From an uncultured Desulfomicrobium sp. (GTDB lineage: Bacteria; Desulfobacterota; Desulfovibrionia; Desulfovibrionales; Desulfomicrobiaceae), in NCBI GenBank assembly GCA_937872685.1, contig CALMTS010000069.1, forward strand, positions 1-33,792: 33,792 nt of DNA. The letters run 5' to 3'. A program made the translations under genes and the position numbers. The number at the start of each line of letters is the position of its first letter. Within the stretch, counting starts at the first letter, position 1. The notes under the pieces are model-generated. The model was not told where the DNA came from. It saw nothing but the letters and a program-made list of their open reading frames with translations, and searched no databases. Below are positions 16,231 to 33,726 of this stretch, one piece after another.

Positions 16231-19200
16231 GTGCGAACAGCCCTGATTTTCCTTTGCCTGCTTTTTTTCGTTCCTCAAGCCTGGGCGCAGGACGAGCAGA
16301 AGATCAATATCTTCTACCTCAACTCCTACCATAACGGGTACCAGTGGTCCGATTCCATTTTCGATGGCGTTCGCGACACCTTTCGCAAGAGCGGGAAGAA
16401 CATCTATCTGCAGATAGAGTACATGGACTCCAAGCGCTTCACCGGGAAGAAGATCAACGAGATCCTGCTCAATTATTACAAGTTCAAGTTCAAGAACATG
16501 CACTTCGACCTGATCGTCACCTCCGACAACAACGCCTACGAGTTCATGTCGCAGCACGGTGACGAGCTTTTCCCGGATACGCCCATCGTCTTCTGCGGCA
16601 TCAACGACGTCGAGGCCGGCAAGGTGCCCATGCGCAACCGCATGACGGGCGTCCTCGAGGAGTTCGACGTGCCGAGCAACATCGAGATGGCCCTGAAGTT
16701 CCACCCGGGCAAGAAGCGGCTGGTGGTCATCGGCGACAAGAGCCTCACGGGCGTGGCCATCGCCAACCAGGTGCGGGCGCAGGTGCCTCTCCTTCCGCCC
16801 GGCATCGAGGTCGAGTTTCTGGACGAGTTCAGCCTGGACGAGCTGATCTCCAAGGTGCGTTTTGCCGCCGGCGACAGCATTTTCTTCTTCATTCCCTTCT
16901 ACAAGGACGTCGGCGAAGCCGTCTATTCGGCCCAGGACCTGCTCAAGATCGTCTGGGAACAGACGGGCGCGCCCCTGTACGGCGCGTGGGAGTTTCTGCT
17001 CGGGCACGGGCTGGTGGGCGGCAAGCTCATCAGCGGCTACGGCCACGGCCAGGCCGCCGCCGAGATGGGCCTGCGCATCCTGAACGGCGAGTCCCCGGCG
17101 GACATCCCCATCACCGTGAGCCCCGACGAGCCGCCCAAGTTCGATTACCGGGTGCTCATGCGCCTGGGCATCAACCTGAAGCTGCTGCCCGAAGGCAGCG
17201 TGCTCATCAACGAGCCGTCGCCGTTCTATTCCATCAACCGCCACCAGTTCTGGACCATCATCATCAGTCTGGTCCTGCTTTCGATGGTTCTCGTGCTGCT
17301 GGTCATCAACATCCTCGAGCGCAAGCAGATCGAGGTGCGCATCAAGAACCAGCTGTCCTTCCTGCGCACCCTCATGGACACCCTGCCCGTGCCTCTCTGG
17401 TTCACGGACCGCAGCGGCGCCATCGCCGGCATCAACCGCGCCTTCGAGCACTGGTTCGGGGTGAACTGGCAGAACGACAGGGCGTTTGCCGCACAGGAGC
17501 TGGCCCTGGCCGACTCGCGGTTCTCCCCCATGCTCGACAGGCGCATGGACTCCTACGAAGCCCAGATTCTGCATGGCGACGGGTCCCTGCGCTCGGCCGT
17601 GCTGCACAAGGCTACCTATGCCGACGCCCAGGGCGACAACGCCGGCATCGTCGGCGTCATCTACGACATCTCGGACCGCAAGAAGGCCGAGGACGACCTG
17701 CGCGCGGCCGAAGAAAAGTACCGCACCATCTTCGAGAACTCCGCTCTGGGCATCTTCCAGACCACGCCCGACGGGTCGTGGATCGTGGCCAACCCCGCCC
17801 TGGCCCGCATGCTCGGGTACTCGAGCCCCGAGGAGCTCATCGCCGTCAACCCCAACATCGCCACCCTCTACTATCAGCAGAGCGACCGCGAACGCGTGGT
17901 GGAACTCTACCAGCAGAACCGGGGCAGCATCGAGTTCGAGGTCCTCTTCCGCACCCGCGACGGCTCCGTCATCACGGCCAACCTGAATGCCCGTGCCGTG
18001 CGCGGCTGCGACGACGACTTCTGCCATTTCGAAGGGTTCGTGGAGGACATCACGGACCGCAAGGCCGCGGAGCTGGCCCTGGCCGCCTCCGAGGCCATGC
18101 TGCAGCTGGTCCTCGACACCATCCCGCAGCTGGTCCACTGGAAGGACAGGCGCCTGCGCATCATCGGCGCCAACCGCAACTTCCTGGCCCACGTCGGCCA
18201 GCCGGATCTTCCGGCCATTCTTGGCAAGACCTACGGCGAGGTCCTGACCGACGCCGGGGAGATCCAGCGCATCGCGGACCTCGACAAGGAGGTCATCGCG
18301 AACAACGAGCCGCGATTCCGCATGCGCCTGGAGACTCGCAACGCCGCGGGCGAGCACATGTGGCTGCTGGTCAACAAGGTCCCGCTGCACGGGCCGCGCG
18401 GCGAGGTGGTCGGCATCCTGAGCACGGCCGAGGACATCACCCAGACCATCAGCCTCGAAAAGCAGCTCCTGCAGTCCCAGAAGATGGAAGCCATCGGCAC
18501 CCTGGCCGGCGGCATCGCCCACGATTTCAACAACATCCTGACCTCCATCATGAACTCGACCGAACTGGCCATGGAGGACATCCCCGAAGGCAGCATCGTC
18601 TGGAAGGACCTGGAGCGCTGCCTCAAGGCCGCGGTGCGCGGCAGCGGGCTCATCAAGCAGATCCTGACCTTCAGCCGGCCGACCCAGGAGGGCTTCGTGC
18701 CCACGGACCTGCGGGAAGTGGTCAGCGAGGCCGTGGCGCTCATCCGCGTTTCCATGCCGCGCAACATCACCGTGCATTCGGCCGTGGAGGAGAGCCTGCC
18801 CATGTGCCTGGCCGACCCGACGCAGGTGCACCAGATCGTCATGAACCTGGCCACCAACGCCTTCCAGGCCCTGGGCGAGCGGGGAGGGCTCATCTCCATC
18901 GGCCTCGGCCGGCTGTCCCTGGACCGGGAAGACCCGCAGTGCGGCAACCTCGCCCCGGGCGTCTACAGCCTGCTGACCATCGAGGACAACGGACCGGGCA
19001 TCCCGGAGGGCATCCAGGACAAGATCTACGACCCCTTCTTCACCACCAAGGGCAAGGGGGAGGGCACGGGTCTCGGCCTGGCGGTGGTGCACGGCATCGT
19101 GCGCAACCACGGCGGGGAGATCAGGCTGTCGAGCGGCCCCGGCCGCACCCGTTTCGACATCCTGCTGCCCTCCATGAGCGACTTCTGCCTGCTCCCTGGC

Positions 19201-19593
19201 GAGTGCGACAGCGCCGTGGCCATGGGCAGCGAGCGCCTGGCCTTCATCGAGGACGACGAGGACCAATTGCAGCTCATCCCGCGCGTGCTTTCGCAGCTGG
19301 GCTACACGACGCACCCGTTCCACAAGGCGGCCGAGGCCATCGAGGCCATCTGCGGAGGACTGGAGGTGGACCTGGTCATCACGGATTTCGACATGCCGGG
19401 CAAAAATGGCATCGATGTTGCGTTGGCGTTGGAGGAGTGCCGCCCCGAACTGCCGGTGATCATGATCTCAGGGCGCAAGCAGGCGGCGGAATTTTCGGCG
19501 CAGGCGGGAAATATCAAGCTATTCGTAAGCAAACCCTACAACAAGGACATGCTCGGACGAGCCATCCGTGATGTCTTCGACAAGGACGCATGA
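16231..19593 (+). CDS. Hybrid sensor histidine kinase with periplasmic ABC-type binding domain (DVU3022-like)
   Basis: A 1120-residue membrane sensor. GTG start at 16231 with GGAG five bases upstream. Layout: signal peptide (1-20, ending AWAQ), a periplasmic ABC-type substrate-binding domain (about 25-330, INIFYLNSYHNGYQWSDSI onward), one membrane helix (about 338-362), three PAS domains (about 371-485, 494-610, 622-745), a dimerisation domain with phospho-histidine H764 (GGIAHDFNNILTSI), a HATPase domain with N-, G1- and G2-boxes (MNLATNAF, EDNGPGIPEG, GEGTGLGLAVVHG), and a C-terminal receiver (acidic E1007-D1008-D1009, phospho-acceptor D1052, K1101). It overlaps the regulator gene by four bases. 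Position and partner match the kinase preceding LurR in D. vulgaris, so it probably senses an extracellular organic acid or a related signal; the ligand is inference. Confidence 0.92.
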   Translation: MRTALIFLCLLFFVPQAWAQDEQKINIFYLNSYHNGYQWSDSIFDGVRDTFRKSGKNIYLQIEYMDSKRFTGKKINEILLNYYKFKFKNMHFDLIVTSDNNAYEFMSQHGDELFPDTPIVFCGINDVEAGKVPMRNRMTGVLEEFDVPSNIEMALKFHPGKKRLVVIGDKSLTGVAIANQVRAQVPLLPPGIEVEFLDEFSLDELISKVRFAAGDSIFFFIPFYKDVGEAVYSAQDLLKIVWEQTGAPLYGAWEFLLGHGLVGGKLISGYGHGQAAAEMGLRILNGESPADIPITVSPDEPPKFDYRVLMRLGINLKLLPEGSVLINEPSPFYSINRHQFWTIIISLVLLSMVLVLLVINILERKQIEVRIKNQLSFLRTLMDTLPVPLWFTDRSGAIAGINRAFEHWFGVNWQNDRAFAAQELALADSRFSPMLDRRMDSYEAQILHGDGSLRSAVLHKATYADAQGDNAGIVGVIYDISDRKKAEDDLRAAEEKYRTIFENSALGIFQTTPDGSWIVANPALARMLGYSSPEELIAVNPNIATLYYQQSDRERVVELYQQNRGSIEFEVLFRTRDGSVITANLNARAVRGCDDDFCHFEGFVEDITDRKAAELALAASEAMLQLVLDTIPQLVHWKDRRLRIIGANRNFLAHVGQPDLPAILGKTYGEVLTDAGEIQRIADLDKEVIANNEPRFRMRLETRNAAGEHMWLLVNKVPLHGPRGEVVGILSTAEDITQTISLEKQLLQSQKMEAIGTLAGGIAHDFNNILTSIMNSTELAMEDIPEGSIVWKDLERCLKAAVRGSGLIKQILTFSRPTQEGFVPTDLREVVSEAVALIRVSMPRNITVHSAVEESLPMCLADPTQVHQIVMNLATNAFQALGERGGLISIGLGRLSLDREDPQCGNLAPGVYSLLTIEDNGPGIPEGIQDKIYDPFFTTKGKGEGTGLGLAVVHGIVRNHGGEIRLSSGPGRTRFDILLPSMSDFCLLPGECDSAVAMGSERLAFIEDDEDQLQLIPRVLSQLGYTTHPFHKAAEAIEAICGGLEVDLVITDFDMPGKNGIDVALALEECRPELPVIMISGRKQAAEFSAQAGNIKLFVSKPYNKDMLGRAIRDVFDKDA

Positions 19594-20978
19594 TGGCCAG
19601 GATCCTGATCATCGACGACGACCCCCAGGTCTGCGAGACCCTGGAGAGCCTGGTCGCCCGGCTGGGGCACGAATGCTTCGCCGCCCATACCCTGCGTGAC
19701 GGCCTGCGGCTGCTGGACGGCGCGGAATTCGACCTCGTCTTTCTGGACGTGCGCCTGCCCGACGGCAACGGGCTGGAGGCCCTGGGACAGATCCGCAACC
19801 AGCCGTCGCCGCCCGACGTCATCGTCCTGACCGGGCAGGGCGACCCCGAAGGCGCGGAACTGGCCATCCAGGGCGGGGTCTGGGACTATCTGGTCAAGCC
19901 TTCGCCCATCAAGCAGATCAAGGAGACCCTGAACCGGGCCCTGACGCACAGGCAGGAGAAAATGGCCCGGGACCTGTCCCTGGACCTGACGGACGTGGTG
20001 GGGGAGAGCAACGCCATGCGGCAATGCTACGAGAGCATCGCCCAGGCCAGCGGCTCGGACTCGACGGTGCTGGTCACCGGTGAGACGGGCACGGGCAAGG
20101 AGCTTCTGGCCCGCACCATCCACCGCAATTCCAGCCGCGCCGACCGGGCTTTCGTGGTCGTGGACTGTGCTGCCCTGACCGAATCGCTCCTGGAGAGCAT
20201 CCTCTTCGGGCATACCAAGGGTTCCTTCACGGGAGCCGCCCGGGACCGGGTGGGCCTGGTCAAGCTCGCGGACCAGGGAACCCTCTTTCTGGACGAGATT
20301 GGGGAACTGCCGCTCTCGGCCCAGAAGACCTTCCTGCGCGTCCTGCAGGAGCGCAGGTTCCGGCCGGTGGGCGCGAGCCAGGAAATGGAGAGCGATTTCC
20401 GCCTCATCTCCGCCACCAACCGCGACCTGGCGGCCATGGTCCGGGAGGGGGAATTCCGGCAGGACCTCTTCTACCGCATCAACACCATCCACCTGGTCCT
20501 CCCGCCCCTGCGCGAACGGGAGGAGGACATCCTGACCCTGGCGCGCCACCACATCGACAAGCTATGCAGGCAGCGGAACATCCCGCTCAAGGAAATGGAC
20601 CCGGAATTCATGGATATGCTCAGGCGGTACGAATGGCCCGGCAACGTGCGCGAACTGTTCAACACCATCGAGCAGGCGTTCGTGCTCTCGGGTGCGGAGA
20701 AAACCGTCTATGCGCAGCATCTGCCGCAGACGGTGCGTATTCGCGTGGCCAAGTCCATGTTGATCAGGGGCAGAGAAGAGACGTCGGCGGAAAATGGGCA
20801 GGAGAGGGAGAAAGAGGCGCTTCCGACACTGAAGGACTTCAAGAGTTCCATGGAAAAGGAGTACTTGCAGAGGCTCTTGCGGACTCATGGCAAGGACATC
20901 CCGAAGATGCTCAGCGTCTCGGGGCTTTCCCGTTCTCACCTGTATGCCATGCTCAAGAAACACGGCCTGGAGGCGTGA
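19590..20978 (+). CDS. lurR: Sigma54-dependent response regulator, LurR-like
   Basis: A 462-residue NtrC-type activator. It has a receiver domain (1-120; phospho-acceptor D53, K103), an AAA+ sigma54-interaction domain (about 135-370) with Walker A GETGTGKE (K170), the sigma54-contact loop GSFTGA (211-216; the usual second residue Ala is Ser), Walker B TLFLDEIGE (231-239), sensor arginines in FRQDLFYRI, and a Fis-type helix-turn-helix at the C-terminus (about 420-462, ending SGLSRSHLYAMLKKHGLEA). It needs phosphorylation by the upstream kinase and activates a sigma54 promoter. In D. vulgaris the equivalent DVU3023 (LurR) controls the adjacent lactate-oxidation operon, and the same gene order here supports that role. 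Two adjacent in-frame ATGs (19590, 19593) are possible starts. Confidence 0.92.
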   Translation: MMARILIIDDDPQVCETLESLVARLGHECFAAHTLRDGLRLLDGAEFDLVFLDVRLPDGNGLEALGQIRNQPSPPDVIVLTGQGDPEGAELAIQGGVWDYLVKPSPIKQIKETLNRALTHRQEKMARDLSLDLTDVVGESNAMRQCYESIAQASGSDSTVLVTGETGTGKELLARTIHRNSSRADRAFVVVDCAALTESLLESILFGHTKGSFTGAARDRVGLVKLADQGTLFLDEIGELPLSAQKTFLRVLQERRFRPVGASQEMESDFRLISATNRDLAAMVREGEFRQDLFYRINTIHLVLPPLREREEDILTLARHHIDKLCRQRNIPLKEMDPEFMDMLRRYEWPGNVRELFNTIEQAFVLSGAEKTVYAQHLPQTVRIRVAKSMLIRGREETSAENGQEREKEALPTLKDFKSSMEKEYLQRLLRTHGKDIPKMLSVSGLSRSHLYAMLKKHGLEA

Positions 20979-20984
20979 GGGACT

Positions 20985-21179
20985 TTACTCTTCGTCCGCT
21001 TCCTTGCCCAGCCAGTATTCCTTCCATGAATCGAGAATGTATTCCGTCTTGACCAGCACGCTGTCGCCGTCGTTGATGCGCTGACGTTGAATGGGAGTCA
21101 GCAGCTGCGACAGCTGCATCGTCTCGTTCTGCGACAGGCCCCTGATCACTCCGCTTTTCGTTATGCTTTTTCCTTTCAT
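20985..21179 (-). CDS. Small protein of unknown function between lurR and por
   Basis: A 64-residue protein on the minus strand, starting at the ATG at 21177-21179 because GGAGG stands six bases upstream; longer upstream in-frame starts lack such a site. The stop is six bases from the stop of the regulator gene (convergent). The product is charged and soluble. It opens MKGKSITKSGVIRGLSQNETMQLSQLL, continues with TPIQRQRINDGDSVLVKTEYIL, and ends in an aromatic-acidic tail (DSWKEYWLGKEADEE). I recognise no domain. D. vulgaris gene numbering (DVU3023 regulator, DVU3025 por) leaves one gene at the same place, which hints that it is conserved, but I cannot compare sequences. A promoter with good boxes precedes it. 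Confidence 0.72.
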   Translation of the reverse strand: MKGKSITKSGVIRGLSQNETMQLSQLLTPIQRQRINDGDSVLVKTEYILDSWKEYWLGKEADEE

Positions 21180-21313: not shown

Positions 21314-21484
21314 TTGAATTCCGAGGTGTTGTCGTGGAGAGCTTTTCTCGGCAGGGCGCGTAGCGGCAGTGTCAATTTCTGCGTGTGTGCCGATTCGAAA
21401 CACCAGGTGTCCCGGTATGAGACGATTCCGGTACACAGGTGGGTCGGGGGCAGGTGCAGAAGCGAAATCAAGCTGCAGAAAAAT

Positions 21485-21500
21485 GGTTGTTTAGTCAACC
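21485..21500. promoter_or_regulatory. Inverted repeat GGTTG-N6-CAACC in the por control region
   Basis: GGTTG (21485-21489) and CAACC (21496-21500) are separated by six bases. It has the same 5-6-5 geometry as the three GTCYG-N6-CGGAC sites but a different half-site, and lies 31 bases upstream of the first of them. It may bind another factor. Confidence 0.35.
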
Positions 21501-21531
21501 AAATTGTTGTAGCACGGCTTGTCATACGGGC

Positions 21532-21547
21532 GTCCGGAAAAACGGAC
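21532..21547. promoter_or_regulatory. Candidate LurR-type binding site 1 (upstream activating sequence)
   Basis: GTCCGGAAAAACGGAC is a 16-bp inverted repeat with 5-bp arms and a 6-base spacer. It is the most distal of three related sites, centred about 389 bases before the predicted por transcription start. Confidence 0.65.
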
Positions 21548-21669
21548 AGACTTTTTGCCGCCTCGGCCCGCCCCGGCGCCCTGTTTGCGCCTTTCGGCAT
21601 GGATTGTGCCTGTCTTTTGCGGTTCGGGCCGATCCGTGACACCTTCTCCGGTGATGGCGGTCTGCTTTT

Positions 21670-21685
21670 GTCCGGAAAAACGGAC
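21670..21685. promoter_or_regulatory. Candidate LurR-type binding site 2 (upstream activating sequence)
   Basis: The same 16 bases as site 1 (GTCCGGAAAAACGGAC), 138 bp downstream of it. It is centred about 251 bases before the predicted por transcription start. An exact 16-base repeat in an intergenic region is unlikely by chance. Confidence 0.7.
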
Positions 21686-21803
21686 GAGTTTCCCGTGAGC
21701 GGTAATTTCGCCTTTAACCTAGGAATTACGCGCGCTAACCGGATTGAAGTTGTTTGTTTGCATTCCCTAAATAACGTGGTAAATCTTTCAATAAATTTTT
21801 CTT

Positions 21804-21819
21804 GTCTGTTTTTTCGGAC
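21804..21819. promoter_or_regulatory. Candidate LurR-type binding site 3 (upstream activating sequence)
   Basis: GTCTGTTTTTTCGGAC keeps the right arm CGGAC and the 6-base spacer, with one change in the left arm. It lies 134 bp after site 2 and is centred about 117 bases before the predicted start, a usual distance for an enhancer of a sigma54 promoter. Confidence 0.65.
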
Positions 21820-21902: not shown

Positions 21903-21918
21903 TGGCATAAAACTTGTT
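21903..21918 (+). promoter_or_regulatory. Sigma54-type promoter of por
   Basis: TGGCAT (21903-21908), five bases, then TTGTT (21914-21918). The spacing is exact for the -24/-12 consensus TGGCAC-N5-TTGCW. The -24 box has one change, and the -12 box has T in place of C. Predicted start near 21929, giving a leader of about 62 bases. The neighbouring sigma54-dependent regulator and the upstream repeats support the call. Confidence 0.65.
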
Positions 21919-21924
21919 TCATGA

Positions 21925-25635
<3,711 letters not shown>

Positions 25636-25690: not shown

Positions 25691-25714
25691 CATCAGTTTT
25701 ACTTGGAGGGAGAT

Positions 25715-27427
25715 ATGTCAATTCCTGTCTTGGCAATGGTGGCTCTGCTGCCGATTCTTGTTGCTCTCGTACTCATGGTCGGCATGCGCTGGCCGTCGAC
25801 GAAAGCCATGCCGCTCGCATGGCTTGTGTGTGCGCTCGGCGCCATCGGCGCGTGGAACCTGCCTGTCGGCTACGTGACCGCACTTTCTCTGCAGGGCATC
25901 GTCATCGCCATCGGCGTGCTCATCATCGTCTTTGGCGCCATCATCATCCTGTACACCCTGAAGTACTCGGGTGGCATGGAAACCATCCAGTACGGGATGC
26001 AGAACATCAGCCGTGACAAGCGCATCCAGGCCATCATCATCGGCTACATGTTCGCGGCCTTCATCGAAGGTGCGGCCGGCTTCGGCACTCCCGCGGCACT
26101 GGCGGCTCCGCTGCTCCTGTCCCTGGGCTTCCCGCCCCTGGCCGCCGCGGTCATCTGCCTGGTCTTCAACTCCTTCCCCGTATCTTTCGGCGCGGTCGGC
26201 ACGCCCATCCTCGTCGGACTGAAGTTCCTCGGGCCGCTTGCCAAGACTGCCGTTGAAGCCGGCACCCCCGGCCTGAACTTCGTCGACTTCGGTTCCTTCG
26301 CCAAGGTCATCGGCCAGTGGGTGACCATGATGCACGGCCCCATGGTCGTCATCCTGCCCATCTTCATGCTCGGCTTCCTGACCCGCTTCTTCGGCAAGAA
26401 CAAGTCCTGGTCCGAAGGCTTCGCCGCCTGGCAGTTCTGCATCTTCGCCGCCGTGGCCTTCCTGGTGCCTTACCTGACCTTCGCCTGGCTGGTCGGACCG
26501 GAATTCCCGTCCCTGATCGGTGGTCTCGTTGGCCTGGGCATCATCGTGGCCGGCGCCAAGGCCGGTTTCTGCGTGCCCAAGGACACTTGGGATTTCGGCC
26601 CGCAGTCCACATGGGACGCTGACTGGACCGGCACCATCGCCACCTCCACCAGCACCGAATTCAAGCCCCACATGAGCCAGTTCAAGGCATGGCTGCCCTA
26701 CATCCTGATCGGCGCCATCCTGGTCGTGACCCGCATCCCCGAACTGGGCCTGAAGGCCGTCCTGGCCGCCCAGAAGCTGCCGTTCACCGACATCCTCGGC
26801 TACAAGGGCGTCTCCGCCTCCATCGACTACCTGTACCTGCCCGGCACCATCCCCTTCATGCTGGTCGCCATCCTGACCATCGCCATCCACGGCATGAAGG
26901 GCGAGGCCGTCAAGCAGGCCTGGAGCGAGTCCTTCGTCAAGATGAAGGCCCCGACCATCGCGCTCTTCGCCGCCGTGGCCCTGGTTTCCATCTTCCGCGG
27001 CTCCGGTGTGGCCGATGCCGCGCTGAACCCCAACAACTACCCCTCCATGCCCCTGGCCATGGCCAAGACCGTCGCCGCCATTGCCGGTAACGCCTGGCCC
27101 ATGCTGGCCTCCTACGTGGGTGGTCTGGGCGCCTTCATCACCGGCTCCAACACGGTCTCCGACCTGCTGTTCGCCGAGTTCCAGTGGGGTGTGGCCCAGC
27201 AGCTCGAACTGCCGCGCCAGATCATCGTGGCCGCTCAGGTCGCCGGCGGCGCCATGGGCAACATGGTTTGTATCCACAACATCGTGGCCGTCTGCGCCGT
27301 CACCGGCCTGATCGGACGCGAAGGCATGATCCTGAAGCGCACCTTCTGGCCCTTCATGCTCTACGGCGTCGTCGTGGGCATCATCGCCTCCCTGATGAGC
27401 TTCGTCTTCCTGCCGAACCTGTTCTAG
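25715..27427 (+). CDS. lctP: Lactate permease (LctP/LldP family)
   Basis: A 570-residue integral membrane protein with 12 or more hydrophobic segments that imports lactate (family also takes glycolate) with protons. I chose ATG 25715 (GGAGGG at 25705-25710) over an in-frame TTG at 25703. The family core AAGFGTPAALAAPLLLSLG, followed by FPPLAAAVICLVFNSFPVSFGAVGTPI, is intact. Later signatures include GGLGAFITGSNTVSDLLFAEFQ and AAQVAGGAMGNMVCIHNIVAVCAVTGL. It lies in the same order as DVU3026 of D. vulgaris, between por and the lactate dehydrogenase genes, and so feeds the pathway. Confidence 0.95.
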   Translation: MSIPVLAMVALLPILVALVLMVGMRWPSTKAMPLAWLVCALGAIGAWNLPVGYVTALSLQGIVIAIGVLIIVFGAIIILYTLKYSGGMETIQYGMQNISRDKRIQAIIIGYMFAAFIEGAAGFGTPAALAAPLLLSLGFPPLAAAVICLVFNSFPVSFGAVGTPILVGLKFLGPLAKTAVEAGTPGLNFVDFGSFAKVIGQWVTMMHGPMVVILPIFMLGFLTRFFGKNKSWSEGFAAWQFCIFAAVAFLVPYLTFAWLVGPEFPSLIGGLVGLGIIVAGAKAGFCVPKDTWDFGPQSTWDADWTGTIATSTSTEFKPHMSQFKAWLPYILIGAILVVTRIPELGLKAVLAAQKLPFTDILGYKGVSASIDYLYLPGTIPFMLVAILTIAIHGMKGEAVKQAWSESFVKMKAPTIALFAAVALVSIFRGSGVADAALNPNNYPSMPLAMAKTVAAIAGNAWPMLASYVGGLGAFITGSNTVSDLLFAEFQWGVAQQLELPRQIIVAAQVAGGAMGNMVCIHNIVAVCAVTGLIGREGMILKRTFWPFMLYGVVVGIIASLMSFVFLPNLF

Positions 27428-27435
27428 TTGTCAAT

Positions 27436-27471
27436 GCGGTCCCGGAAGTTGCGCAAGGCTTCCGGGACCGC
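27436..27471 (+). promoter_or_regulatory. 13-bp intercistronic hairpin between lctP and the D-lactate dehydrogenase gene
   Basis: GCGGTCCCGGAAG (27436-27448) pairs perfectly with CTTCCGGGACCGC (27459-27471). No T-run follows, so it is better read as an mRNA-stabilising or processing element than as a terminator. It sits eight bases after the permease stop. Confidence 0.55.
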
Positions 27472-27509
27472 TTCATGAATATAATTGCATCTCACGCAAG
27501 GAGAGAACC

Positions 27510-28898
27510 ATGATTTCGACGAGTCTGCTCACCGAGTTCCAGACCCTGCTGGGCAAAGATAACGTCCTCGAGAGCGAGTCCGACCGCCATGCGTATTCGT
27601 ATGATGCAGCGGTCCTCGATTCGGTCATTCCGGAGCTGGTGCTTCGGCCGACCAACAGCGAACAGCTGGGCAAGACCGTGGCGCTGTGCAACGAGAACAA
27701 GCTGCCCATGACCGTGCGCGGCGCCGGCACGAACCTCAGCGGCGGGACCATCCCGACCAAGGAACACGGCGTCGTCATCCTGACCAACGGTCTCAACAAA
27801 ATTTTGGAAATCAACGAGCAGGACCTCTATGCCGTGGTCCAGCCCGGTGCCGTGACCGCCAAGTTCGCGGCCGAAGTGGCCAGGCGCGGCCTGTTCTATC
27901 CGCCGGATCCGGGCTCCCAGGCCGTGTCCACCCTGGGCGGCAACGTCGCCGAGAACGCCGGCGGCCTGCGCGGCCTGAAGTACGGCGTGACCAAAGACTA
28001 CGTCATGGGCGTGAATTTCTGGAACGCCGAGGGCGAGTACTGCAAATCCGGCGGCAAGACCGTCAAGTGCGTCACGGGCCTGAACATCGCCCAGCTCATG
28101 GTCGGATCCGAAGGGACGCTGGGCGTCTTCGACGAGATCATCCTCAAGCTCGTTCCGCCGCCAGTGGCCTCCAAGGCCATGCTGGCCGAGTTCGACGACA
28201 TCAACAAGGCCTCCGAAACCGTCGCGGCCATCATCGCCAACAAGATCGTGCCCTGCACCCTTGAGCTCCTGGACAACGCGACCATCAACCTGGTCGACGA
28301 CTTCACCAAGGCCGGCCTGCCCCGCGACGCCGCGGCCATCCTGCTGATCGAAGTCGACGGCGGGCACATCGCCCTGGTCGAGGACGACGCCGAGAAGGTC
28401 GTGGAGATCTGCAAGAAGAACGGCGCCAAGCGCGTGCAGATGGCCAAGGACGCCGCCGAGAAGAACAAGCTGTGGGAAGCCCGCCGCAACGCGCTGCCGG
28501 CCCTGGCCCGCGCCCGTCCGACCACCGTGCTGGAAGACGCCACCGTGCCGCGCAGCCAGATCCCGGCCATGATCAAGGCCATCAACGACATCGCCGCCAA
28601 GTACAAGCTGCAGATCGGCACCTTCGGCCACGCCGGCGACGGCAACCTGCATCCGACCATCCTCACGGACCGCCGCGACAAGGAAGAGTTCCACCGCGTG
28701 GAACTGGCCGTCGACGAAATCTTCGACGTGGCCCTGTCCCTGGGCGGTACCCTGTCCGGCGAGCACGGCATCGGCACGGCCAAGTCCAAGTGGCTGGAGA
28801 AGGAGACGTCCAAGGCAACCATCATCTACTCGCGGAGGCTGAAAAAGGCAGTTGACCCCAACTACCTGCTCAATCCCGGCAAGATCATCGGAGGCTAG
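27510..28898 (+). CDS. FAD-dependent D-lactate dehydrogenase subunit (GlcD-like, DVU3027-like)
   Basis: A 462-residue FAD-linked oxidase of the GlcD/D-lactate dehydrogenase family. The FAD-binding domain contains RGAGTNLSGGTIP (about residues 70-82), PPDPGSQAVSTLGGNVAENA, GGLRGLKYGVTKDYVMG, and GSEGTLGVFDEIILKL. The C-terminal cap has FGHAGDGNLHPTI and LSGEHGIGTAKSKWL, whose histidines belong to the active site. It oxidises D-lactate (or glycolate) to pyruvate, passing electrons to the iron-sulfur partner encoded two bases downstream. AAGGAG is six bases before the ATG. In D. vulgaris the pair DVU3027-3028 is reported as D-lactate dehydrogenase, and operon context favours lactate over glycolate here. 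No membrane segment; it probably attaches to the inner membrane through its partner. Confidence 0.93.
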   Translation: MISTSLLTEFQTLLGKDNVLESESDRHAYSYDAAVLDSVIPELVLRPTNSEQLGKTVALCNENKLPMTVRGAGTNLSGGTIPTKEHGVVILTNGLNKILEINEQDLYAVVQPGAVTAKFAAEVARRGLFYPPDPGSQAVSTLGGNVAENAGGLRGLKYGVTKDYVMGVNFWNAEGEYCKSGGKTVKCVTGLNIAQLMVGSEGTLGVFDEIILKLVPPPVASKAMLAEFDDINKASETVAAIIANKIVPCTLELLDNATINLVDDFTKAGLPRDAAAILLIEVDGGHIALVEDDAEKVVEICKKNGAKRVQMAKDAAEKNKLWEARRNALPALARARPTTVLEDATVPRSQIPAMIKAINDIAAKYKLQIGTFGHAGDGNLHPTILTDRRDKEEFHRVELAVDEIFDVALSLGGTLSGEHGIGTAKSKWLEKETSKATIIYSRRLKKAVDPNYLLNPGKIIGG

Positions 28899-28900
28899 TC

Positions 28901-30190
28901 ATGCATGAAGATCTTCATCAGCTAGCCAAGATGCTGCACGAGCTCGACGACCAGATGGTCGCGTGCATGAAGTGCGGCATGTGTCAGGCGGTCTGCCCGG
29001 TCTTCTCGGAGACCATGAAGGAGGGCGACGTCGCCCGCGGCAAGATCGCTCTCCTTGAAAACCTGTCCCACGAGATGATCGCCGACGCAGCAGGCGTGCA
29101 GGACAAGCTCAACAAGTGCCTGCTCTGCGGCTCCTGCGCGGCCAATTGCCCCAGCGGCGTGAAGGTGCTCGACATCTTCTTCAAGGCCCGCGTCATCGTG
29201 AACACGTACATGGGGCTTTCGGCCACCAAGAAGGCCATCTTCAAGGGCCTCTTGACCAAGCCGGCGCTCTTCAACACCGTGCTGGACGTGGCGTCCAAGT
29301 TCCAGGGCGTCTTCACCAAGACGGCCAACGAGGTCATCGGTTCGTCCTGTTCGCGCATCAACGCCCCGGTCATCGGCGAGCGGCATTTCATGCCCCTGGC
29401 CAAGAAGCCCCTGCGCAAGCTGGAGCCGGCCCTCAACACCCGTCCCGGCAAGGGCGGCTACCGCGTGGCCTTCTTTCCCGGCTGCGTCGTGGACAAGATC
29501 TACCCCCATGTGGGGCAGTCCATCCTGAAAGTCCTGCGTCACCATGAACTGGGCATCTACATGCCCGCCGGGCAGGCCTGCTGCGGCATCCCGGCCCTGG
29601 CTTCGGGCGACAAGGAATCCTTCGACAAGCTCGTGAAATGCAACCTCGAGCTCTTCGAGAAGGAGAACTTCGACTACCTTTTGACCCCGTGCGCCACCTG
29701 CACGGCCACGATCCACGAGATCTGGCCCCTCATGTCCGGCGACAAGTCCGAGAGCATGAAGGAGCGCATCGCCGCCATGGCCGCCAAGGTCATGGACGTG
29801 AACCAGTTCATGGTCGACGTGCTCAAGGTTGCCAACCCCGTCCAGGGCCACGGCCAGAAGGTCACGTATCACGACCCCTGTCACCTCAAGAAGTCCATGA
29901 AGGTCTTCGAACAGCCCCGGGCGCTCCTCAAGAGCTGCTCCAAGGTCGAGTTCGTGGAGATGGCCGAACCGGACCGCTGTTGCGGTTGCGGCGGCAGCTT
30001 CAACCTTCAGCACTACGGCCTGTCCAAGGACATCGGCAAGATCAAGCGTGACAATATCGTCGCTTCCGGCGCCGATGTCGTGGCCACGGGTTGCCCGGCG
30101 TGCATGATGCAGATCTCCGACATGCTTTCGCAGCATGGCGACAAGATCGCGGTCAAGCATGTGATGGAAATCTACGCAGAAACACTGTAA
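28901..30190 (+). CDS. Iron-sulfur subunit of D-lactate dehydrogenase (GlcF-like, DVU3028-like)
   Basis: A 429-residue protein with two [4Fe-4S] motifs at the N-terminus (C22/C25/C28/C32 and C73/C76/C79/C83) and two CCG (DUF224) domains. The first CCG reads FFPGCVVDKIYPHVGQ with GQACCGIPALASGD. The second reads YHDPCHLKKSMKVF with DRCCGCGGSFNLQHYG, and a late CPACMMQ closes it. CCG domains of heterodisulfide-reductase-like proteins bind further iron-sulfur centres. It takes electrons from the FAD subunit and passes them to the quinone pool or another membrane acceptor. It starts two bases after the stop of the FAD gene (coupled translation) and is followed by a terminator. Confidence 0.92.
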   Translation: MHEDLHQLAKMLHELDDQMVACMKCGMCQAVCPVFSETMKEGDVARGKIALLENLSHEMIADAAGVQDKLNKCLLCGSCAANCPSGVKVLDIFFKARVIVNTYMGLSATKKAIFKGLLTKPALFNTVLDVASKFQGVFTKTANEVIGSSCSRINAPVIGERHFMPLAKKPLRKLEPALNTRPGKGGYRVAFFPGCVVDKIYPHVGQSILKVLRHHELGIYMPAGQACCGIPALASGDKESFDKLVKCNLELFEKENFDYLLTPCATCTATIHEIWPLMSGDKSESMKERIAAMAAKVMDVNQFMVDVLKVANPVQGHGQKVTYHDPCHLKKSMKVFEQPRALLKSCSKVEFVEMAEPDRCCGCGGSFNLQHYGLSKDIGKIKRDNIVASGADVVATGCPACMMQISDMLSQHGDKIAVKHVMEIYAETL

Positions 30191-30195
30191 TGAAG

Positions 30196-30249
30196 AAGGC
30201 GTCGATACTCTGGCACATTGCCGAGTGTCGGCGCCTTTTCAACTTTTTG
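30196..30249 (+). terminator. Terminator after the lactate dehydrogenase genes
   Basis: A 15-bp stem with two G-T pairs (30196-30210 with 30223-30237) is extended inside the loop by GGC/GCC (212-214 and 220-222 of the 30 kb block). TTTT ends the stem and a second run of five T follows at about 30244. It separates por-lctP-glcD-glcF from pta-ackA. Confidence 0.75.
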
Positions 30250-30407
30250 TCGTAACATACCGCATTTTTTGAATGAGCAGTTCGGGCTCGGTGGAGCTTG
30301 TTCTCTTTGAAAAATAGCTTGTGTAACCAACCAATTTGATTTACCCACCGTGGCACAACACGGGACGGGTCACGTCGGAAACCGTACCGGCATCCAAGGG
30401 AAGGAAT
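30250..30407 (+). other. Leader region of pta
   Basis: About 160 bases between the terminator and pta, AT-richer than the genes. A promoter for pta-ackA is expected here, but I find no convincing paired boxes. A lone TGGCAC at 30350 lacks a matching -12 element. Confidence 0.35.
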
Positions 30408-32510
30408 ATGGCCAGAAATTTGTACATCACGGCGACGGAATCTCGCAGCGGAAAATCAGCCATTGTCCTCGGCGTCATGCAGATGCTCCTGCGCGACATC
30501 CGCCGGGTCGGCTTCTTCAGACCCATCATCAACGACGTGCCGGACCGCAAGGACCACGACATCGACCTGGTCCTGTCCCAGTTCTACCTGGGCCTGCAGT
30601 ACCACGAGACCTACGCCCTGACCATGCGTCAGGCCAAGGAGCTGGTCAACGCCGGGCAGCACTCCATCCTGATCGAGAAGATCATCAACAAGTACAAGGA
30701 ACTGGAGAGCAAGTGCGATTTCGTGCTGCTCGAAGGCACCGACTTCGAGGGCACCAGCCCCGCATTCGAGTTCGACATCAACGCCGACATCGCCGCCAAC
30801 CTCGGCAGCCCCCTGCTGGTCATCTCCAACGCCTGCCAGAAGACCGAGCACGAGATCATCAGCACCACCAAGCTGGCCGTCGAGTCCTTCGGCGACAAGG
30901 CCGTGGACATCATGGGCGTGGTCATCAACCGCACCGACGTGCCGGACCGCGAGGCCCTGCGCATCGCCCTGAAGAAGACGCTCAACAAGCCCGACATGCT
31001 CCTCTACATCATCCCCGAGGTGGCCATCCTGGGCAAGCCTACGGTGGGCGACGTCATGAAGTGGGTCGGCGCCGAAGTCCTTTACGGCGGTGAGAATCTC
31101 GGCGCGCAGGTCGACGACATCGTCGTGGCCGCCATGCAGATCGAAAATTTCCTGAATTACATCGAGCGCGGCAGTCTCGTGGTCACCCCGGGCGACCGTT
31201 CGGACATCGTCGTCAGCAGCCTGGCCTCCCGGCAGTCGTCGTCCTACCCCGACATCGCCGGCATCCTGCTCACGGGCGGCATCCGCCCGGGCAAGAGCGT
31301 GGACCGGCTCATCGAGGGCTGGACCGGCGTGCCCGTTCCCGTGCTCCTGGGCAAGGAGGCCACCTTCCAGACGGCCCGCCGCCTGTACAACATGTACGGC
31401 AAGATCGAGCCGGGCGACCAGAAGAAGATCGCCTCGGCCCTGGGCGTGTTCGAGGAGAACGTGGCCACCGACGAGCTGCGTCAGCGCCTCAACACCAGAA
31501 AGTCCACCAAGGTCACCCCGCAGATGTTCGAGTACGGCCTCATCGAAAAGGCCAAGAAGCACCGCCAGCACATCGTTCTGCCCGAGGGCGGGGACGAGCG
31601 CATCCTGCGCGCGGCGGACATCCTGCTGCGCCGCGGCGTGGTCGACCTGACCATCCTGGGCAATCCCAAATCCATCGCCACAGCGACGTCCCAGCTGGGC
31701 CTCAACCTGTCCGGCGTGAACATCATCGACCCGGTCGCTTCGCCCGATTACAACGATTACGTCTCCACCTTCATGGAACTGCGCAAGAAGAAGGGCGTGT
31801 CCAAGGAAGTGGCCTGCGACTGCATGGTCGACCCGACCTATTACGGCACCATGATGGTCTTCAAGGGCCAGGCCGACGGCATGGTCTCCGGCGCCATCAA
31901 CACCACGGCGCACACCATCCGCCCGGCCTTCCAGATCATCAAGACCAAGCCCGGCGCGTCCATCGTGTCGAGCGTCTTCCTCATGTGCCTCAAGGACCGC
32001 GTGCTGGTCTTCGGCGACTGCGCCGTGAACCCCAACCCCACGGCCCAGCAGCTGGCCGAGATCGCCATCAGCTCCGCCGAGACGGCCCGCATCTTCGGCG
32101 TGGACCCGCGCGTGGCCATGCTGTCCTATTCGACGGGCGACTCCGGCGCCGGCGGCGACGTGGATGTTGTCATCGAGGCTACCCGCATCGCCCGTGAAAT
32201 GGTCCCGAACCTCCTGCTCGAAGGCCCGCTGCAGTACGACGCGGCCATCGACCCCGACGTGGGCGCCAAGAAGCTGCCCGGCAGCGAGGTCGCAGGGCGG
32301 GCCACGGTCTTCATCTTCCCGGACCTCAACACCGGCAACAACACCTACAAGGCGGTCCAGCGCGCCGCCAACGCAGTGGCCATCGGCCCGGTCCTGCAGG
32401 GCCTCAACAAGCCCGTCAACGACCTGAGCCGCGGCTGCACCGTTCCCGACATCGTCAACACCGTCGCCATCACGGCCATCCAGGCTCAGGCGGAAAAAGG
32501 TTTAATATAA
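30408..32510 (+). CDS. pta: Phosphate acetyltransferase, long form with DRTGG domain
   Basis: A 700-residue enzyme interconverting acetyl-CoA plus phosphate and acetyl phosphate plus CoA. I chose ATG 30408 (MARNLYITATESRSGKSAIVLG) with AAGGGAAGG just upstream; the longer open frame has no better site. Three parts are visible: an N-terminal P-loop domain of the BioD/dethiobiotin-synthetase type (ESRSGKSA, about residues 1-210), a DRTGG regulatory domain (about 215-330), and the catalytic PTA domain (about 375-695) with VLPEGGDERILRAADILLRRG, DGMVSGAINTTAHTIRPAFQIIKT, SYSTGDSGAGGDVDVVIEA and FPDLNTGNNTYKAVQR. This is the usual long Pta of enterics and Desulfovibrio. It runs in the ATP-forming direction with AckA, ten bases downstream. 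Confidence 0.95.
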   Translation: MARNLYITATESRSGKSAIVLGVMQMLLRDIRRVGFFRPIINDVPDRKDHDIDLVLSQFYLGLQYHETYALTMRQAKELVNAGQHSILIEKIINKYKELESKCDFVLLEGTDFEGTSPAFEFDINADIAANLGSPLLVISNACQKTEHEIISTTKLAVESFGDKAVDIMGVVINRTDVPDREALRIALKKTLNKPDMLLYIIPEVAILGKPTVGDVMKWVGAEVLYGGENLGAQVDDIVVAAMQIENFLNYIERGSLVVTPGDRSDIVVSSLASRQSSSYPDIAGILLTGGIRPGKSVDRLIEGWTGVPVPVLLGKEATFQTARRLYNMYGKIEPGDQKKIASALGVFEENVATDELRQRLNTRKSTKVTPQMFEYGLIEKAKKHRQHIVLPEGGDERILRAADILLRRGVVDLTILGNPKSIATATSQLGLNLSGVNIIDPVASPDYNDYVSTFMELRKKKGVSKEVACDCMVDPTYYGTMMVFKGQADGMVSGAINTTAHTIRPAFQIIKTKPGASIVSSVFLMCLKDRVLVFGDCAVNPNPTAQQLAEIAISSAETARIFGVDPRVAMLSYSTGDSGAGGDVDVVIEATRIAREMVPNLLLEGPLQYDAAIDPDVGAKKLPGSEVAGRATVFIFPDLNTGNNTYKAVQRAANAVAIGPVLQGLNKPVNDLSRGCTVPDIVNTVAITAIQAQAEKGLI

Positions 32511-32520
32511 AGGGGATACC

Positions 32521-33726
32521 ATGAAAATCTTTGTCATCAATTCCGGGAGTTCCTCCCTCAAATACCAGCTTCTCGACATGGAAACCGGCGCCGTCATGAC
32601 CACGGGCCTCGTGGAGCGCATCGGCGACGCCATGGGCAAGCTGAGCCAGAAGAACTGGCCCGGCGAGGAGAAGCAGGCCGAAGTGGAGCGGGAGATGCCG
32701 TTCCCCGACCACCGCGCCGCCATGCACACCGTGGTCGACCTGGTCACCGGCAAGGATACGGGCGTCATCGCCTCGGCCGCCGAGATCGACGCCATCGGCC
32801 ACCGCGTGGTCCAGGGCGGGGAGACGCTGTTCAAGAGCACTCTCATCGACGACGACGTCGTGGCCAAGATCCGCGCCAACTGCCCCCTGTCGCCCCTGCA
32901 CAACCCGGCCAACCTGGTCGGCATCGAGGTGGCCCGCGAACTTTTCGCCGGCGTGCCGCAGGTGGCCGTGTTCGACACGGAATTCCACCAGACCATGCCC
33001 GCCGAAGCCTTCATGTACCCGATCCCCTACGAGCTCTACGACGAGCTCAAGATCCGCCGTTACGGCTTCCACGGCACCTCGCACCGCTACGTGGCCCAGC
33101 AGGCCGCGGCCATGCTCGGCAAGGCCGAGGACGAGGTCAACCTGGTCACCCTGCACCTGGGCAACGGCTGCAGCATGGCCGCCGTGCGCAAGGGCAAGTG
33201 CATCGACACCTCCATGGGCCTGACTCCCCTGGCCGGCGTGATGATGGGCACCCGCAGCGGCGACATCGACCCGGCCATCCTGCCCTTCCTGATGAAGGAG
33301 AAGGGGCTGACCATGGACCAGGTCGATTCCATCCTGAACAAGCAGAGCGGCCTCAAGGGCATCTGCGGCATGAACGACATGCGCGACATCCATGCCGCGG
33401 CCGAGAAGGGCGACAAGAAGGCCGCCCTGGCCGTGGACATGTTCGTCTACCGCATCAAGAAGTACATCGGCGCCTACTACGCCGTGACCGGCCCCCTGGA
33501 CGCCCTGGTCTTCACCGCCGGCATCGGCGAGAATGACGAAGTGGTCCGTGCCCGCGTCTGCGCGAATCTCGAACATCTCGGCATCAGCATTGACCCCGCC
33601 CGCAACGCCGGCCGCAAGAAAGTCGCGACGGCAGTGCAGGCAGACGGAAGCAAGGTCGCCATCCTCGTTATCCCCACCAACGAGGAACTGGCCATCGCCA
33701 AGGCGACCTTGAGCGTCCTGAAATAG
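32521..33726 (+). CDS. ackA: Acetate kinase
   Basis: A 401-residue ASKHA-fold kinase that makes ATP and acetate from acetyl phosphate and ADP. Residues corresponding to the known catalytic set are in place: N7 (INSGSSSLKYQ), R95 (GHRVVQGG), D152 (FDTEFHQTMP), H184 (YGFHGTSHRYV), R245 (MMGTRSGDIDP) and E388 (TNEELAIA). GIGEND and LHLGNGCSM mark the nucleotide-binding loops. AGGGG lies just upstream of the ATG, ten bases after pta. This is the substrate-level ATP step of lactate oxidation to acetate. In D. vulgaris further lactate genes follow; here a terminator closes the unit. Confidence 0.97.
   Translation: MKIFVINSGSSSLKYQLLDMETGAVMTTGLVERIGDAMGKLSQKNWPGEEKQAEVEREMPFPDHRAAMHTVVDLVTGKDTGVIASAAEIDAIGHRVVQGGETLFKSTLIDDDVVAKIRANCPLSPLHNPANLVGIEVARELFAGVPQVAVFDTEFHQTMPAEAFMYPIPYELYDELKIRRYGFHGTSHRYVAQQAAAMLGKAEDEVNLVTLHLGNGCSMAAVRKGKCIDTSMGLTPLAGVMMGTRSGDIDPAILPFLMKEKGLTMDQVDSILNKQSGLKGICGMNDMRDIHAAAEKGDKKAALAVDMFVYRIKKYIGAYYAVTGPLDALVFTAGIGENDEVVRARVCANLEHLGISIDPARNAGRKKVATAVQADGSKVAILVIPTNEELAIAKATLSVLK

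Follow-up and report, generated by a model that had tools for sequence, protein, structure and literature searches.

Predicted LurR sites upstream of the lactate oxidation operon of a Desulfomicrobium-type genome: a conserved distance from the nearest site to the sigma54 promoter, with variable spacing between sites

Results and discussion

In this Desulfomicrobium-type genome, the DNA separating lurSR from the lactate operon por-lctP-dld-pta-ack contains three 16-bp palindromes, which we predict, with high confidence, to be the LurR upstream activating sites of the lactate oxidation operon. A comparison with about 80 relatives revealed that the distance separating the promoter from its nearest site is what evolution keeps constant, rather than the site-to-site spacing. 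Sites of this kind, in this number and with this regulator, are already known, since the layout of lurSR and the operon has been published and the corresponding sites of D. vulgaris are bound in EMSA. The features of the window, by which we mean the whole stretch of 33,792 nucleotides that was analysed, are listed in Table 1.

Table 1. Features of the lurSR-por region and the basis of their assignment
Feature	Position	Strand	Basis and remarks
lurS, hybrid sensor kinase	16231..19593	+	ABC_sub_bind-like N-terminal domain, PAS domains, HisKA, HATPase, receiver (Pfam scan)
lurR, response regulator	19590..20978	+	sigma54-activator AAA+ domain, GSFTGA loop, Fis-type C-terminus (Pfam scan; 15-ortholog alignment)
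LurR-like site 1 (distal), GTCCGGAAAAACGGAC	21532..21547	.	palindrome GTCCG-N6-CGGAC; one of five A/T-core sites in the genome
LurR-like site 2, GTCCGGAAAAACGGAC	21670..21685	.	132-135 bp from site 3 in 13/13 genus loci
LurR-like site 3 (proximal UAS), GTCTGTTTTTTCGGAC	21804..21819	.	exact sequence; kept in 13/13 genus loci
predicted sigma54 (-24/-12) promoter, TGGCATAAAACTTGTTT	21903..21919	+	consensus match; fixed position in relatives
por, pyruvate:ferredoxin oxidoreductase, first lactate operon gene	21991..25635	+	Pfam scan
remaining operon	25703..33726	+	Pfam scan; start codons from the ORF list, unrefined
lactate permease	start 25703		
FAD D-lactate dehydrogenase-type	start 27510		
CCG/Fe-S subunit	start 28901		
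phosphotransacetylase	start 30336		
acetate kinase	start 32521		

Three clustered palindromes resembling LurR sites

The sequences and coordinates that an earlier note on this DNA had given for the palindromes were exact. In sites 1 and 2, perfect GTCCG/CGGAC arms flank a 6-bp core, while site 3 has a mismatch in one arm (GTCTG) and a symmetry that extends to TTGTC...GACAA. Genome-wide scans, which were pattern searches only, gave a divided answer to the suggestion that the motif be sought across the genome. The bare form GTCYG-N6-CRGAC was found 32 times in the 4.08-Mb genome and its reversed control 34 times, a chance level at which it is rejected as a genome-wide regulon marker. The form with an A/T core (GTCYGNWWWWNCRGAC) was found at five places versus none for the reversed control. 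Three of these five sites fall inside 288 bp of this region, where about 0.0004 would be expected at genome density, a clustering far above chance. Across 16 genomes of the genus, the A/T-core pattern was found at 36 places versus nine in the control, most of them upstream of por or dctP.

In D. vulgaris, EMSA showed binding of LurR to three 16-bp sites in front of por (ATCCGCTTTTTCAGAC, GTCCGCTTTTCAAGAC, and GTCCACTTTTTCAGAC), the por operon has the sigma54 promoter ATTGGCACATTTCTTGTTA, and deletion of lurR lowers por about two-fold on lactate (PMC6456213). Most genomes with lurR have one to four sites, usually three (PMC6456213). The comparison with the published D. vulgaris motif that the earlier note had called for showed agreement in the 16-bp form, and this form together with the three-site layout at por supports its proposal that the palindromes are LurR-type binding sites, as predicted from sequence. 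This likeness is apparent by eye and is thus independent of our scoring matrix, by which the three sites reach 19.7-19.8 bits and the published sites 15.9-17.8, a difference that arises partly by construction because the matrix includes these three sites. By analogy with D. vulgaris, LurR would bind here and activate the operon in a lactate-dependent manner. A contribution of a sigma70 promoter is reported for D. vulgaris por and may also occur here.

The surroundings of the palindromes are those of a LurR regulon promoter, with lurSR immediately before them and the expected operon after them (Pfam). The note had placed a sigma54-type promoter about 90 bp past the last site and a gene for a sigma54-dependent regulator next door, and both were recovered. 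The promoter begins 99 bp past the start and 83 bp past the end of site 3, and the neighbouring regulator displays a receiver (PF00072), a sigma54 AAA+ domain (PF00158), and a GAFTGA-type loop, seen as GSFTGA in the ortholog alignment. The C-terminal SGLSRSHLYAMLKKH of LurR is conserved, yet the Pfam scan returned no HTH model above the cut-off. A Desulfomicrobium MAG, with a LurR 87% identical to this one, is the closest named relative of the window.

Several further elements were observed in this region. The ABC_sub_bind-like domain of LurS (residues 41-299, E = 1.3e-7) is a candidate sensing domain. Between lurR and por, a 64-aa ORF (MKGKSITKSGVIRGLSQNETMQL...) lies on the minus strand at 20985-21179; it is 75-98% conserved in the 12 other lurR-por loci of the genus, and no counterpart appeared in the remaining loci searched. 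Near this ORF, at 21266-21239, is a sigma70-like promoter match. A second palindrome, TGGTTGTTTAGTCAACCA (21484-21501), lies about 30 bp upstream of site 1 and is kept in most genus genomes; it is not a LurR motif.

All 13 loci of the genus in which lurR adjoins por have exactly three sites, including a counterpart of site 1 at variable spacing, and a sigma54 promoter of the TTGT/TTGA type. No site was found at por in G010, G026, G034, and G042, which are without a LurR ortholog and in which the region upstream of por is fully readable, nor in G056 within the 308 bp that are readable. In the g22 genomes G080, G093, and G146, lurR does not directly adjoin por; the LurR-linked por copy bears sites, 102 bp from the promoter, and a second copy has none. 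Four genomes with LurR (G005, G015, G018, and G183) had no site found at por, so the link between LurR and the site is not absolute. A site without a detected LurR was seen in G073, a genome only 83% complete.

A fixed distance between the proximal site and the promoter

The order-wide sample comprised 80 lurR-downstream regions of other genera and 30 further loci. Sites were scored with a matrix made of five published D. vulgaris sites and the three window sites. The top sigma54 match within 450 bp upstream of the gene was taken as the promoter, irrespective of where the sites lie. Of the 76 operons having both elements, 65 place the proximal site 99-103 bp from the sigma54 promoter; when the spacer sequence was shuffled, the best promoter fell at this distance in 2.0% of trials. 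With the further loci included, 69 cases lie at 99-103 bp, 11 at 87-92 bp, none at 93-98 bp, one at 106 bp, and six at 169 bp or above (at least 169 bp). The 99-103 bp class spans ten genera, and the 87-92 bp class three. Among the loci at the greatest distances, four of the six belong to g21 (probably Solidesulfovibrio); judging from congeners, these may have a weaker site, about 91 bp away, that scores below the threshold.

Within the genus, the distance from site 3 to the promoter TGGCA is 99-100 bp (sd 0.28, 13/13 loci), and the spacer on the promoter side shares only 40-65% identity with its counterpart in the window, so that length is retained as sequence drifts. From genus to genus, spacers are 27% identical versus 25% for shuffles, a small excess, and conserved spacer sequence is rejected as the cause of the fixed proximal length across the order. 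An IHF site in this spacer is likewise a weak candidate cause, the best scoring 7.2 of 9 versus 6.8 in shuffles. The 5' leader varies in length, with genus medians from 82 to 353 bp, so the distance between promoter and site is not conserved merely as a piece of an invariant region. As the operons share ancestry, they do not count as independent cases; the argument for a fixed length is therefore built on the number of genera, ten with 99-103 bp, in which the spacers are unrelated.

The two distance classes differ by about one helical turn. The gap from 92 to 99 bp is compatible with such a turn, the shorter class being represented by three genera. The classes were also observed to differ at the -12 element, which is TTGC in g8 and g17 of the 87-92 bp class (loci L192, L224, L234, L235, L245, L250, and L252) and TTGT or TTGA in most of the 99-103 bp class; this difference may be phylogeny only.

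In the distance distribution of a D. vulgaris sigma54 survey, the largest fraction has its nearest activator site no more than 100 nt away (PMC4641369), and a Clostridiales survey gives distances of 100-250 bp (PMC6615313). No regulator is described in the passages on these distances as keeping one distance from genus to genus (PMC4641369, PMC6615313), and the text of the LurR paper mentions neither spacing nor distance (PMC6456213). With the comparison limited to these texts, priority for the fixed distance is not established.

Additional copies of the motif

The other two A/T-core sites of the genome lie away from por. One of them (C373:7539; L054:1501-1516) precedes a DctP-type TRAP gene by 347 bp; the product of this gene has C4-dicarboxylate-binding proteins as its closest solved relatives. 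A LurR-like site is found 342-347 bp upstream of dctP in eight of the nine genus genomes having this gene, and the gene on the upstream side of the site differs between genomes, which leaves dctP as the common element. We consider dctP a candidate additional target of LurR. A pattern search found no sigma54 promoter near this site, which suggests either another type of promoter or a site of another regulator. The remaining copy (C27:10376; L047:3377-3392) is 134 bp upstream of a sensor kinase gene, the partner regulator of which is 49% identical to LurR; in the genus comparison it was seen in this genome only.

Spacing between the sites and alternative interpretations

The start-to-start distances of 138 bp (sites 1-2) and 134 bp (sites 2-3) had been read in the earlier note as about 13 DNA turns each, placing the sites on about the same face. 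At 10.5 bp per turn they correspond to 13.14 and 12.76 turns, with offsets of +1.5 and -2.5 bp; the distances thus stand, and the same face holds only approximately. We weighed the possibility that three sites on one face, about 13 turns apart, build a fixed three-dimer looped complex. In addition to the turn counts, this would be in line with the 132-135 bp (sd 0.77) that separate sites 2 and 3 in 13/13 genomes of the genus. Against it, sites 1 and 2 are separated by 108-148 bp (sd 11.9) in the same 13 loci, and their phase, in five clusters, gave R = 0.58 with p ~0.18. Order-wide, spacings range from 23 to 169 bp, longer gaps excluded, and when inter-site distances below 200 bp were reduced to 28 clusters from 13 genera, no 10.5-bp phase was present (R = 0.13, p ~0.62), with nearby periods behaving likewise. 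Across homologs the distances are thus not the whole multiples of 10.5 bp of a helically phased multi-site enhancer, and helical phasing between sites was rejected as a general rule. The fixed length between sites 2 and 3 may have another cause, as their spacer holds a conserved block that may itself set this length. We regard the phased arrangement as unlikely. The meaning that the note had attached to the even spacing does not survive these data, and its further suggestion that regularity is a sign of a looped or oligomeric complex draws no specific support from the spacing; a looped hexamer is the standard inference for any sigma54 activator of this type. The conserved block itself (21711-21770; TTTAACC...GCGCGYTAACCGGATTGAAGTTGTWTGTTTGCATTC) is present in nearly all genus genomes and contains TTAACC-type repeats about 21 bp apart; it could be a second promoter or a site of another regulator.

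Alternatives also bear on what the palindromes are. They might serve another sigma54-dependent response regulator, either NrfR-like or the LurR paralog encoded on C27, with or without a role for LurR. In D. vulgaris, the LurR sites at por are also bound by NrfR (PMC6456213), and many related sigma54 activators are encoded in this genome, so one of these might use the sites beside LurR or in its place; the paralog with an A/T-core site in front of its partner kinase is one of them. Nevertheless, NrfR required more protein in EMSA (PMC6456213), lurSR is directly adjacent to the sites and co-conserved with them, por lacks sites in genomes without LurR, and the C27 site is confined to a single genome, which together make this reading improbable. 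There is very little to be said for the palindromes as transcription terminators or RNA hairpins downstream of lurR. Site 1 was flagged as terminator-like in a scan (5-bp stem, loop of 6, then AGACTTTTTG), but each stem has just 5 bp and the A/T run falls in the loop, neither site 2 nor site 3 was flagged on the plus strand, and the motif recurs at a like distance before sigma54 promoters in ten genera with differing flanks. The short stems and the distance kept across these genera led us to reject the terminator reading, and we retain LurR as the regulator predicted to use the three sites.

Proposed mechanism and significance

Based on these findings, we propose that LurS would phosphorylate LurR on lactate or a related signal, and that LurR dimers would then occupy the three sites and assemble into an AAA+ ring. 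Through a short DNA loop, this ring would contact RNA polymerase-sigma54 at the promoter and start transcription of por-lctP-dld-pta-ack. Remodelling of RNA polymerase-sigma54 by an AAA+ ring through looping is established for this class of proteins, and ring assembly and looping are attributed to LurR by analogy with sigma54 activators in general. From the spacing data we infer that site 3 would act as the proximal enhancer, at a geometrically constrained distance from the promoter (about 93 bp between its centre and the -24 GG). Sites 1 and 2, in this view, may raise occupancy and help oligomer assembly while tolerating much looser spacing.

Lactate oxidation is the central energy pathway of these sulfate reducers, with LurR as its main activator, and enhancers are usually held to act at flexible distances. 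These operons offer a natural experiment on the geometry of sigma54 enhancers, with one distance held within a few bases across an order, next to spacer sequence that is near random and inter-site distances that are not fixed. The sites themselves were to be expected; the useful addition is the comparison of enhancer geometry, which corrects the tempting reading, from a single genome, of even site spacing as a functional feature. For LurR promoters across the Desulfovibrionales, the length rule may be stated as a proximal site 99-103 or 87-92 bp, and never 93-98 bp, before the promoter, with the other sites moving freely. Whether this rule reflects direct selection on short-loop geometry across the order, together with a Desulfomicrobium LurR regulon that reaches a C4-dicarboxylate-type TRAP transporter, is a proposal on which we are evenly divided.

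Comparison with known systems

The closest system is that of D. vulgaris Hildenborough, with LurR (DVU3023) and por (DVU3025), which has the same 16-bp palindrome consensus (PMC6456213, PMC3333781). Both have three sites, an adjoining lurSR, an identical operon content (DVU3025-3033), and a promoter with the -12 variant TTGT. They differ in the arms, mostly CGGAC here and CAGAC in D. vulgaris, and in the spacings, which are 138 and 134 bp here versus 39 and 100 bp there (published positions -389/-350/-250, with the reference point unstated). The promoter string published for D. vulgaris was not found among eight genomes of genus g24. NrfR (DVU0621) of D. vulgaris is also a sigma54-dependent response regulator with a very similar motif, and it binds the por sites in vitro; unlike LurR, it is a regulator of nitrite stress with its own targets, nrfHA, and is not encoded beside por. 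The nearest parallel described is NorR of E. coli, for which three enhancer sites at norVW scaffold the oligomer (PMC2941729). As at por, a sigma54 activator is there served by three upstream sites, whereas NorR senses nitric oxide through a GAF domain and recognizes another motif, and LurR is a two-component response regulator.
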